Source of the DNA: an uncultured Acidobacteriota bacterium
GTDB lineage: Bacteria > Acidobacteriota > Terriglobia > Terriglobales > Acidobacteriaceae
Reading direction: 5' to 3'
NCBI GenBank assembly: GCA_903832295.1
Contig: CAILAZ010000093.1
Span: 1 to 64,000 of the forward strand
DNA length: 64,000 nt
The notes under the pieces are model-generated. The model was not told the DNA's origin. It saw nothing but the letters and a program-made list of their open reading frames with translations, and did no database searches. How positions within the stretch are numbered: the stretch's first letter is position 1; each line of letters starts with the position of its first letter. Positions 25-53,101 of the stretch are shown here, in pieces. Made by a program: the position numbers and the translations under genes.

Positions 25-122
25 TGACCACCCTGTCACTCCCCCCGCCTCCGACGATTAACCCGAATGTCCATCGTTGCGGCGCTCGCAAACCTCCCGC
101 TCCATGCGCTACCATCATTGCG

Positions 123-2858: not shown

Positions 2859-2935
2859 GATTTCTAGTGTAGATGAGCGGGTGGGAAGAGACCAAAGCGG
2901 AGGGGGCGCATTTGTGGGCAGCCTCTTGCGCATGG

Positions 2936-6757: not shown

Positions 6758-6860
6758 TGCCAATCAATCCTGTAGAAAATTTCCCACTAACCGCATAGTA
6801 CCGTAGCGCAAAGAGGTTCGCCACACTTTCTGTGAGGTTCCGGGCAAGGATTTACGGCCC

Positions 6861-6866
6861 TATAAT
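6861..6866 (+). promoter_or_regulatory. consensus -10 box TATAAT, probable leaderless start of queA
   Basis: A perfect TATAAT ends 7 nt before the GTG start of queA. Transcription from it would begin at or next to the start codon, leaving no room for a Shine-Dalgarno. No strong -35 box is visible. Confidence 0.6.
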
Positions 6867-6873
6867 CAATTGC

Positions 6874-7974
6874 GTGCTAGTTTCCGATTTCGATTTTAAC
6901 CTACCACCTGAACTGATTGCGCAGCACCCTCCCGTGGAGCGTGCCGCGTCGCGGATGCTCCATTTAAGGAGTAACTGCCTTCGGGACACAGTTTTCGGCG
7001 AGCTTCCAGAGCTGCTGAGGCCCTCTGATCTGCTGGTATTCAACGATACTAGGGTGCTTCCGGCGCGGCTCTTTGGCCACCGCAGCGGAAGCCGGGCGCA
7101 GCGGCTGAGCCCGGCAAACCCGGCCTCGCGGGAGTTTCTGCAGGGGCGGGTGGAGGTGCTGCTGACGCGGCGGCTGGCGGGCGAAGAGCAACGCTGGCAG
7201 GCACTGGTGCGGCCGGGAAAGAAGATCATGCCAGGGGAGAGTTTGTACTTTGGCGCGGCGGAGGACGGGCAAGCCCTGCTGGAGGCCGAGGTGCTGGAGC
7301 GGGGCGAGTTTGGGGAGCGCACGCTGAAGTTTCTGCCGGTGCCGGACTTCTTTGCGCGGCTGGAGCGGCTGGGCCATATTCCGCTGCCTCCCTACATTGA
7401 CCGCAAGGATACGGCCGAGGACCGGGAGCGCTACCAGACGGTGTTTGCGCGCGATCCGGGGTCGGTGGCGGCGCCGACGGCGGGGCTGCACTTTACGGAC
7501 GAAATTCTGGGACGGCTGGGGGAAAAGGGAATCGAGACAGCTGCGGTGACTCTCCACGTGGGGCTGGGGACGTTTTCACCGATCCGGGTGGAGGTGGTGG
7601 AGGAACACAGGATCCACACCGAGTGGTACCAGGTTCCGGAAGATACGGCGGAGAAGATTGCGCGGGCCAGGCGCGAGGGGCGGCGGGTGGTGGCCGTAGG
7701 GACGACCACGGTGCGAACGCTGGAGTACGCGGCAGGACAGTATCCGGAGGGGGCGATTCCGGCGCATGAAGGCGAGGCCAATATTTTTATCTACCCGGGA
7801 TACCGCTTCCGGGTGGTGGATGCGATGCTGACGAACTTCCACCTGCCGAAGAGCACGCTGCTGATGCTGGTGGCGGCGTTTGCGGGGCGGGAGCGGGTGC
7901 TAGCGGCGTACGAACACGCGGTCCGCGAGCGCTACCGGTTCTTCAGCTACGGGGACTGCATGCTGGTGGAATAA
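6874..7974 (+). CDS. queA: S-adenosylmethionine:tRNA ribosyltransferase-isomerase
   Basis: A 366-residue cytoplasmic enzyme that moves the ribosyl part of SAM to preQ1 at tRNA position 34, making epoxyqueuosine. Family marks are [13 protein letters not shown] at the N-terminus, [42 protein letters not shown] and the C-terminal [18 protein letters not shown] 6874 is chosen because it gives MLVSDFDF, the standard N-terminus; the open frame upstream is not conserved. An insertion of about 20 residues follows VLPARLFG. There is no Shine-Dalgarno, and TATAAT lies 7 nt upstream. The polA gene follows after 42 bp. Other queuosine genes are absent from the window. Confidence 0.95.
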
Positions 7975-8016
7975 GGCCAGTGGAACGCGCCGCCGGTTTG
8001 GGCTAGGATTCTCCCT

Positions 8017-10803
8017 GTGCCTGCCAAGAAGAAATCCGCCGAAGTGGAAGCCGCAGTAGAGACGAGACCAGCCGTACTTCCTCCCCAGGGCAAGGGGCGC
8101 GTGTTTTTGATCGACGCCTACTCGTTCGTCTTCCGCGCCTACCACGCGATGGCCCGGCAGCGCCCGATGTCCACGCGGACAGGGCTGCCGACGGCCGCTA
8201 CATTCGTATTTGTAAATATGCTGAACAAGCTGCGCAAGGACTTCAGCCCTGAGCTGATTGCGGCGGTGTTTGACATGGGGCCGAGCTTCCGCGAGGCGCA
8301 GGGGGCGGCGATGCCGTCGCTGAAAAAGCGCGACAAGGAGACGGGCGAGATTGTGGAGGTGGCCTACGCGGGATACAAGGCGAACCGGGTGGAGATGCCG
8401 GAGGATTTAAGGCAGCAGATTCCCTACATTCACCGGGCGCTGGAGGTGTACCGGATTCCGATCCTGGGGCGCGAGGGGTTTGAGGCCGACGACGTGATCG
8501 GCACGCTGGCCCGCGAGGGCGCAGAGGCCGGTTACGCGGTGTACGTGGTGAGCAGCGACAAGGACATGATGCAGCTGGTGACCGGGCAGGTGTGCGTGCT
8601 GAACCCGCCGAAGGACAACTTGATCTGCGATCCGGCGAAGGTGGAGGAGCTGCTGGGAGTGAGGCCGGAGCAGGTGGTGGACCTGATGGCCCTGCGCGGC
8701 GATGCGATTGACAATGTGCCGGGCGCGCCGGGGATCGGAGAGAAGGGGTCGGTGGAGCTGATCCAGCAGTTTGGCACGCTGGACGCGCTGCTGGCGCGGG
8801 CGGACGAGGTGCAGAAGAAGACTTACCGCGAGTCCCTGCAACAGAACCTGGAGATGATTCTGCTGAGCAAGGAACTGGTGACGATTGACTGCCACGTGCC
8901 GATTCCGTTTGAGCCGGAGGTGATGCGGGCGCAGGAGCCCGACGTAACGGCGGCGCGCGAACTGTTTGGCGAGCTGGAGTTTACGACCCTGCAGAAGGAG
9001 TTCCTCTCGGCGGGCGAAGCGGTGGGAGAGACGAAGTATGGCGAGCTGACGGCGGAGGCGCTGGCCGAGATGGCAAAGGCTGGGGTGCTGGCGATTGCGC
9101 TGAGCGCGGCGGTGCGGCTGACGGAGGTGGAGTTGAGCGCCGAGGAGGCGCCGGAGGAAGAGGCTCCGGAGCAGGGTTCGCTGGCGCTGGGCGAGGTGAC
9201 GGCGGCGCGCGAGGCGGTGGAGGCGGAGCGGCAGCAGATTGCGCTGGCGGCGGTGGTCTCAGAGAGCTACACGGCGGAGCTGACAGGGGCGCAGGCGGCA
9301 GAGATTGCGAAGCTGCTGGCAGACGGCGGCCTGGGGAAGGCGGTGCACGATGCCAAGTCCACGCTGCACGCGCTGAACAACACCGGGCTGGCACTGGCCG
9401 GGGTGGAGCACGACACGATGCTCTACTCCTACCTGCTGGACCCGACCTACAGCGCGCACACGCTGCCGGAAGTGGCGCTGCGAAGGCTGGGGCTGAAGCT
9501 GACAGGTTCCCTGGCGGAGGCCGCCGACATGACGCTGCGGCTGGCAGAGAAGCTGCGCGCCGAGGTGGAGGCCGAGCCGGAGCTGGCCAGGCTGTACCGC
9601 GAGATCGACCTGCCGCTGTCGGGGGTGCTGCACGGGATGGAGCAGGCCGGAGTGCAACTGGACTGCGAGGTGCTGGCGGAGATGAGCGGCAAGCTGGCGG
9701 GCGACGTGCGCCGGTTGGAGGGCGTGATCCACCAGATGGCGGGGGTGGAGTTCAACGTGAACTCGCCAAAACAGCTGGGCGACGTGCTGTTTAACAGGAT
9801 GGCGCTGCCCAAGCCGTTCAAGTCCGGCAAGGGGAAGACGATTTCAACCGCGCAGGATGTGCTGGAAGGGCTGGCGGGCGAGCATGAGATTGCGCGGCTG
9901 GTGCTGGAGTTCCGGCAGCTGAGCAAGCTTAAATCGACATATATCGATGCGTTGCCGCAGCTGTGCCGCAACGGCAGGCTGCACACGAGCTTCAACCAGG
10001 CGTCGACGGCGACGGGCAGGCTGAGCTCGACGAACCCGAACCTGCAGAATATTCCGATACGGACGGAGCTGGGGCGGGAGATAAGGGCGGCGTTTGTGGC
10101 GGCTCCGGGGAAGCTGCTGGTGGGGGCGGATTACTCGCAGATCGAGCTGCGGCTGCTGGCGCATTACTCGCAGGACCCGCTGCTGCTGGAAGCCTACCGC
10201 ACGGGGAAAGACATCCACACGCTGACGGCGGCAGAGGTGTTCGGCGTGCCTCCGATGCTGATTGACGCGGAGCACCGGCGGCGGGCGAAGGCGGTGAACT
10301 TCGGGATTGTGTATGGGCTGTCGCCGTTTGGGCTGGCGCAGCAGTTGGGCATTGAGCAGAAAGAAGCAAAGCGGTTTATCGAGGCGTACTTTGAGCGCTA
10401 CGCCGGAGTGCGGGGGTTCATTGAAAGCACGCTGGAGCAGGCGCGGCAGGATGGGTTTGTGCGCAACCTGTTCGGGCGCAAGCGGCCGATTCCCGACTTG
10501 CTGAGCAAGAACCCGAACCTGCGCGGTTTTGCGGAGCGGACGGCGGTGAACACTCCGCTGCAGGGGACGGCGGCGGACCTGATCAAGATTGCGATGCTGC
10601 GCCTGGATGAGGCCCTGCGGGGGCATGGGCTGAAGGCGAAGATGCTGCTGCAGGTGCATGACGAACTGGTGCTGGAGTCTCCTGAAGAGGAGTTGGAGGT
10701 TGTGAAGCGGCTGGTGAAAGAGTGCATGGAAGGTGCGCACGCGGTCAGCGTTCCGCTGGAAGTTGAGGTGAGCGTGGGGAAGAACTGGCGGGACATGGAT
10801 TGA
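8017..10803 (+). CDS. polA: DNA polymerase I
   Basis: A 928-residue enzyme for repair and Okazaki-fragment processing. Residues 28-340 form the 5'-nuclease domain (VFLIDAYSFVFRAYHAM, FEADDVIGTLA, DKDMMQLV). Residues 345-560 are a 3'-5' exonuclease-like domain, and the rest is polymerase: motif A VGADYSQIELRL, motif B RRRAKAVNFGIVYG, motif C QVHDELVLE. The first exonuclease motif lacks its Asp/Glu pair (AIALSAA instead of a DTE-type motif), while later Asp residues remain, so proofreading is probably lost, as in the Taq and Bst enzymes. GTG 8017 has no Shine-Dalgarno but has TAGGAT 7 nt upstream. The first 27 residues are a Lys/Ala-rich extension. Confidence 0.96.
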   Translation: MPAKKKSAEVEAAVETRPAVLPPQGKGRVFLIDAYSFVFRAYHAMARQRPMSTRTGLPTAATFVFVNMLNKLRKDFSPELIAAVFDMGPSFREAQGAAMPSLKKRDKETGEIVEVAYAGYKANRVEMPEDLRQQIPYIHRALEVYRIPILGREGFEADDVIGTLAREGAEAGYAVYVVSSDKDMMQLVTGQVCVLNPPKDNLICDPAKVEELLGVRPEQVVDLMALRGDAIDNVPGAPGIGEKGSVELIQQFGTLDALLARADEVQKKTYRESLQQNLEMILLSKELVTIDCHVPIPFEPEVMRAQEPDVTAARELFGELEFTTLQKEFLSAGEAVGETKYGELTAEALAEMAKAGVLAIALSAAVRLTEVELSAEEAPEEEAPEQGSLALGEVTAAREAVEAERQQIALAAVVSESYTAELTGAQAAEIAKLLADGGLGKAVHDAKSTLHALNNTGLALAGVEHDTMLYSYLLDPTYSAHTLPEVALRRLGLKLTGSLAEAADMTLRLAEKLRAEVEAEPELARLYREIDLPLSGVLHGMEQAGVQLDCEVLAEMSGKLAGDVRRLEGVIHQMAGVEFNVNSPKQLGDVLFNRMALPKPFKSGKGKTISTAQDVLEGLAGEHEIARLVLEFRQLSKLKSTYIDALPQLCRNGRLHTSFNQASTATGRLSSTNPNLQNIPIRTELGREIRAAFVAAPGKLLVGADYSQIELRLLAHYSQDPLLLEAYRTGKDIHTLTAAEVFGVPPMLIDAEHRRRAKAVNFGIVYGLSPFGLAQQLGIEQKEAKRFIEAYFERYAGVRGFIESTLEQARQDGFVRNLFGRKRPIPDLLSKNPNLRGFAERTAVNTPLQGTAADLIKIAMLRLDEALRGHGLKAKMLLQVHDELVLESPEEELEVVKRLVKECMEGAHAVSVPLEVEVSVGKNWRDMD

Positions 10804-19336: not shown

Positions 19337-19379
19337 AGGAGAAGTTTAGCAGGGCAGGGAAGGAAGTCCAGGGGGAGGG

Positions 19380-22093: not shown

Positions 22094-22278
22094 TATCCCC
22101 TCCTGATGCGCCAGACCTTGCACGTTCGCAGTATGGAAGAGAGTTGGTGACGTTTTGATTACGGCTGCGAAAATGGAAGATGAAAGTTTCGTGCTGGGCC
22201 GGAGGTATTCACAGAAGTTTGACAGAGTTTAAGCCTGACTTTTACAAACCTGCGCGGCCTCCGACGTATGCTCCACAT

Positions 22279-38764: not shown

Positions 38765-39163
38765 GATGCCCCATTATAAGCGTCTTGCAGGTACACGGAA
38801 GGTGGGAGGTTGATAATTCCTCTCGCTGTAGCGGCAGGTGGGCTGGCAGGTGGGAGCCCCTTCCGGTGCCTTGCTTGAATTCAACGTGTGCCCATAGTGA
38901 TGCATCTCCCTTATTCCATATTTGGTATATGCCTCGCCCGTTCGCTTCCAAAAACGGGATTTCTTTCAAAATGAAAAGTCCCGGCGTCCCGCAAGTCCTT
39001 AATGTGCCAACTCTGGGCAGCGGCTCTCTTTGGAATACTACGTGCAGTACGTAATACGAATTCAGCAACATTTAGGTGCGTTCCGGTGTGGGATGCCAAG
39101 GTCCGGCCTGGTGCTGCTTGAGCTGTTTCATTACTGATTGATTACGTTTAAAGGGGAGCGCGA
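38765..39163. other. 399-bp region between zinc-ribbon gene and Oar-like receptor
   Basis: No gene is seen. Near 38800-38850 there are repeated AGGTGGG units. At 39037-39057 an imperfect palindrome centred on GTGCAGTAC (ACGT boxes on both sides) lies about 110 nt before the receptor start and could be an operator. The receptor's Shine-Dalgarno AAGGGGAG is at 39151-39158. No clear promoter was found. Confidence 0.4.
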
Positions 39164-53072: not shown

Positions 53073-53101
53073 ACGATAATCCCCGCTCGCGTTTTCAGCA
53101 A
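53073..53101 (-). promoter_or_regulatory. promoter with leaderless start for the DinB gene
   Basis: TTGCTG (53101-53096) and TATCGT (53078-53073) are 17 bases apart on the minus strand. The -10 box ends 7 nt before ATG 53065, so transcription would begin at or next to the start codon. Confidence 0.5.

Follow-up and report, generated by a model that had tools for sequence, protein, structure and literature searches.

Predicted leaderless genes led by TANNNT boxes in an acidobacterial genome and across the Terriglobia

A sizeable minority of genes, both in the genome of the soil acidobacterium from which the sequence studied here derives (assembly GCA_903832295.1) and in the class Terriglobia, carry a TANNNT box at a short and narrowly defined distance before the start codon. 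These boxes are very probably -10 elements of the sigma-70 type that give rise to leaderless or near-leaderless mRNAs, a reading that draws on their enrichment, spacing, conservation at orthologous starts and promoter-like base preferences.

Results

The boxes were originally noticed in a 64-kb window, by which we mean the whole stretch of DNA that was analyzed, where a preliminary description had listed eight TANNNT hexamers lying 6-8 nt before start codons (Table 1; the spacer is the number of nucleotides between box and start codon). All eight can be read in the sequence as claimed, and the accompanying estimate of about one chance case per 45 starts is reproduced by the TANNNT background of 0.0077 per upstream position, which yields 1.04 expected. 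The starts in question had been chosen by eye, however, and for this reason the evidence from the window is weaker than it appears. A motif-blind caller, using codon statistics only, leaves 4 of the 49 genes called in the window with a box, against 1.1 expected (P = 0.026). It agrees with four of the eight starts, places those of queA, the membrane protein gene and the DinB gene further downstream, and does not call the zinc-ribbon gene. With starts read by eye and such partial agreement, the window by itself constitutes moderate evidence only, although the boxed starts of the four remaining genes are backed by their orthologues, as detailed below.

Table 1. TANNNT boxes preceding start codons in the 64-kb window
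Gene	Box	Position	Strand	Spacer (nt)	Start codon	Motif-blind caller
Response regulator	TACCAT	110..115	+	7	ATG 123	same start
mltG (YceG family)	TACACT	2866..2871	-	7	ATG 2858	same start
queA	TATAAT	6861..6866	+	7	GTG 6874	
polA	TAGGAT	8004..8009	+	7	GTG 8017	same start
xseA	TAAACT	19343..19348	-	6	GTG 19336	same start
Membrane protein (without Pfam match)	TATGCT	22267..22272	+	6	ATG 22279	
Small zinc-ribbon protein	TATAAT	38773..38778	-	8	ATG 38764	
DinB family (Pfam DinB)	TATCGT	53073..53078	-	7	ATG 53065	

A much firmer basis is provided by the source genome, of which some 1.1 Mb was sampled in stretches, with genes called without reference to any upstream motif. A count of TANNNT at -6 to -8 against shuffled sequence, which the preliminary description had proposed as a check, reveals a clear enrichment: 58 of 763 genes are boxed at spacers 6-8, compared to 16.1 ± 4.1 in 100 dinucleotide-preserving shuffles, the highest of which reached 29. 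The enrichment persists when the window is excluded, with 54 of 714 genes boxed in the remaining ~1 Mb against 16.4 expected (P = 7e-14). The excess of boxed genes at these spacers amounts to about 5.5%, a figure that is probably a lower bound because wrong starts dilute the count; the start calls are computational, and the caller is imprecise in this genome. The called coding density of the assembly is 0.76, compared to 0.84-0.87 in relatives, and no 16S rRNA gene was found among its 351 contigs. Whole-genome counts of the exact pattern TATAAT-N7-ATG were discarded as evidence, since they are too few (4 in the source genome, against 2 for a reversed-pattern control) and the pattern is non-specific, as illustrated by the control genome of Geothermobacter (10 against 0).

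One concern with such a peak is that it might be created by start calling itself, through in-frame TAA or TAG stops or AT-rich non-coding bases upstream of the called starts. At spacer 6 a box beginning with TAA or TAG is indeed an in-frame stop that favors starts directly after it, of which xseA is an example. Nevertheless, TAT and TAC account for 19 of the 25 spacer-6 boxes in the source genome, and the peak continues at spacers 7 and 8, where the box is not in frame with the start, with no comparable peak at 3, 9 or 12. Composition is preserved by the dinucleotide shuffles, and genes with a single plausible start are still boxed in 8 of 104 cases at spacers 6-8, where about 2 would be expected. 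Furthermore, the same pipeline applied to 14 loci of the Desulfuromonadales yields no peak, with 3 boxed genes against ~7.7 expected. The out-of-frame spacers, in conjunction with the orthologue footprints described below, refute an origin in start calling, to which we assign hardly any probability.

The boxes extend to relatives of the source organism. In 400 kb of Terriglobus roseus DSM 18391, 24 of 292 genes are boxed, compared to 5.9 ± 2.3 in shuffles, an excess of 6.2%, and a steep peak in box spacing is seen across 63 acidobacterial loci around queA. The raw count for these loci (156 boxes at spacers 6-9 among 675 genes) was rejected as evidence, given that queA and polA orthologues recur in it, and it was replaced by a weighting in which each of the 325 gene families of the Terriglobia is counted once. 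The family-weighted values lie between 0.4 and 1.2 for spacers 0-5 (1.2 at spacer 5) and jump to 18.6 at spacer 6; for spacers 6-9 combined, the excess over background corresponds to 11.9% of the families. This sharp lower edge is consistent with leaderless transcription, because a -10 box less than 6 nt away would start transcription inside the start codon.

The base preferences of the box, compiled from 137 boxed genes (one per family), resemble those of a promoter. At position 5, A or C makes up 85% of cases, and A alone accounts for 45% at position 4; a G two bases before the box is found in 48%, against a background of 28%, as in an extended -10 element. Upstream, TTG occurs 17 and 18 nt from the box in 5.8 and 3.6% of cases (against 1.5 and 1.0%), and four or more matches out of six to TTGACA at 16-18 nt are found in 16%, compared to 7% of controls; a -35 signal is present, if weak. 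A pyrimidine directly precedes the start codon modestly more often than expected (63% against 53%, P = 0.017), as anticipated if the purine that opens ATG or GTG is the first base transcribed. TTG starts are rarer among boxed genes (5 of 137 against 76 of 973), without reaching significance (P = 0.08).

These preferences also bear on the possibility that the box is a translation signal, AT-rich and unstructured or bound by S1 as in Bacteroidetes, lying within genes that have ordinary leaders. Such a signal would account for a position fixed relative to the start codon, as is typical of ribosome signals, and for the lack of Shine-Dalgarno sequences in boxed genes. It would not readily explain why the letters match the -10 hexamer (T at 1, A at 2, T at 6, A or C at 5), the G two bases upstream or the weak -35. 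Likewise, boxes in the source genome are most frequent among divergent genes (10.3%) and scarcer among closely coupled ones (4.6%), and queA lacks a box where it abuts an upstream gene. We consequently regard a translation signal as improbable, if somewhat less so than a start-calling origin, and favor -10 elements. The absence of Shine-Dalgarno sequences from all 58 boxed genes of the source genome is largely forced, given that the box occupies the same bases, and this mutual exclusion was set aside as mechanical. When three-letter patterns were ranked without a preset motif, TAnnnT came first for the Terriglobia, second for T. roseus and ninth for the source genome, where Shine-Dalgarno patterns come out on top, and therefore the two modes of initiation coexist in this genome.

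The conservation of the boxes at orthologous starts was evaluated by trying several candidate starts and spacers for each orthologue, a procedure with an estimated rate of chance matches of roughly 7-10%. For polA, TANNNT is found at spacers 6-9 in 29 of the 34 orthologues having a candidate start, mostly as TAAACT or TAGACT and embedded in upstream DNA that is otherwise dissimilar, and mltG is boxed in 22 of 30 orthologues, including the window copy, across two families of the order. For queA, the homologous start is boxed in 28 of ~62 acidobacterial loci and in only 1 of 17 other loci; in the boxless acidobacterial cases it often overlaps or abuts an upstream reading frame. The membrane protein gene is boxed in all four loci, including the window copy, and the DinB gene in three of three close relatives (the window copy and two orthologues with more than 50% identity), the box being absent from remote homologues. 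The response regulator orthologue in locus L061 keeps its box at spacer 8, and same-genus orthologues of the zinc-ribbon gene have theirs at spacer 9, at spacer 8 and, in one case, as TATAAT ~10 nt from the ATG; outside the genus this box is mostly absent. Conservation is lower for xseA (4 of 12), and unboxed contrast families from the same loci score 0 of 23, 0 of 16 and 1 of 20. Further boxed families in queA-region loci L061-L136 include a recG-like one (9 of 15) and an unnamed family of 37 members (18 boxed). In some relatives, tandem arrays of a diverged 7-bp repeat run up to the -10 box or stop just short of it (L093:2071-2111; L234:2491-2520), the polA arrays being of the form (CCCTGAT)n and those of mltG (AGTCGCT)n; similar arrays were seen by eye in L097, L089, L070, L237 and L240, and exact period-7 repeats show no overall enrichment.

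The orthologues are also informative on whether the boxes, even if they are -10 elements, might often belong to genes whose true starts are located further downstream, and which would then have ordinary leaders. The downstream choices of the motif-blind caller for queA, the membrane protein gene and the DinB gene are in line with this proposal. Against it, queA homology extends to the first residues at the boxed start in the 28 loci, orthologues of polA, mltG and the zinc-ribbon gene also begin at the boxed codon, and a peak only 3-4 nt wide is not what promoters at random distances from the start would produce. The likelihood of generally misplaced starts thus seems minimal, and -10 elements of predicted leaderless mRNAs remain the preferred interpretation. 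The longest queA reading frame begins 14 codons further upstream than the boxed GTG 6874, at GTG 6832 (window 6832-6874); homology favors the boxed codon, and hence automatic annotation may choose the wrong start.

Discussion

In the mechanism we propose, the housekeeping RNA polymerase, of sigma-70 type, would recognize TANNNT as a -10 element and begin transcription some 6-9 nt downstream of it, with the initial nucleotide of the start codon or very shortly ahead of it. Speaking against this, the -35 signal is weak, and for boxes at spacer 9 the predicted transcription start falls a few nucleotides upstream of the codon. The resulting mRNAs would open with the coding sequence itself or after a leader of at most 3 nt and would lack a Shine-Dalgarno site, and their 5'-terminal AUG or GUG would presumably be recognized either by 70S ribosomes or by 30S subunits that already carry initiator tRNA. 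Leaderless initiation would be one of two modes operating in the genome, the other being Shine-Dalgarno initiation. From box position, enrichment, spacing, conservation and base preferences, we infer where transcription starts, that the leader is missing and how ribosomes bind. The suggestion of likely leaderless mRNAs made in the preliminary description is thus upheld in silico, on account of the spacing peak, the positional conservation, the promoter-like bases and the absence of a peak in the control lineage, and leaderlessness itself is still arrived at by inference.

The persistence of box and spacing while the flanking DNA turns over raises the possibility that the leaderless state itself has been selected across the Terriglobia for the housekeeping genes polA, mltG and possibly queA and recG. 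This proposal is tentative and, in our estimation, rather unlikely; if true, selected leaderlessness might serve regulation, for instance by letting translation continue while stress curbs Shine-Dalgarno initiation. Acidobacteriota, an abundant group of soil bacteria, are difficult to cultivate. If perhaps a tenth of their genes are leaderless, taking the box into account should aid the annotation of gene starts, and also promoter finding, because the box would directly mark the start of transcription. For heterologous expression, leaderless genes would need an added ribosome-binding site, and the list of putatively conserved leaderless genes offers material for the study of leaderless translation outside Actinobacteria and Deinococcus.

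The letters of the box (TAnAAT/TAnACT, with a G at -2 before it) are those of the sigma-70 -10 element in its extended form, which it differs from in lying 6-9 nt, rather than tens of nucleotides, before the start codon, and in its weak -35. Leaderless transcripts of mycobacteria (PMC4633059) and Streptomyces likewise have a TANNNT -10 near ATG or GTG and coexist with Shine-Dalgarno genes, but their leaderlessness has been shown by RNA-seq and ribosome profiling, whereas here it is predicted from sequence. Leaderless transcription has been predicted in 21.6% of bacterial species by GeneMarkS-2 work, as cited in PMC9581028, and no experimental transcription-start map for Acidobacteriota was found in the open-access papers searched, which is not proof that none exists. 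The closest precedent is the survey of 953 bacterial genomes by Zheng et al. 2011 (PMC3160421), in which TA-led leaderless genes were predicted in all three Acidobacteria genomes analyzed, with a mean of 13.3% (9.7-19.4), contradicting the initial impression that leaderless genes were undescribed in this phylum. The genes reported here share with TA-led genes a TANNNT core whose first T lies ~12 bp ahead of the start codon (spacer 6; here -12 to -14), the lack of a Shine-Dalgarno sequence (to a large extent mechanical here), their minority status and their significance against dinucleotide shuffles. The excesses obtained here for the source genome and T. roseus are lower than the TA-led shares in that survey, a difference that probably owes something to motif-free start calling and to the restriction to spacers 6-8. 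What differs is the addition of another genome and of orthologue footprints for named genes across the Terriglobia; in the papers searched, we came across no earlier account of predicted leaderlessness being conserved in this class for polA and mltG. The observation is confirmed, and it seems very likely that the proposed mechanism is right, the boxed genes representing a well-supported further instance of TA-led leaderless genes.
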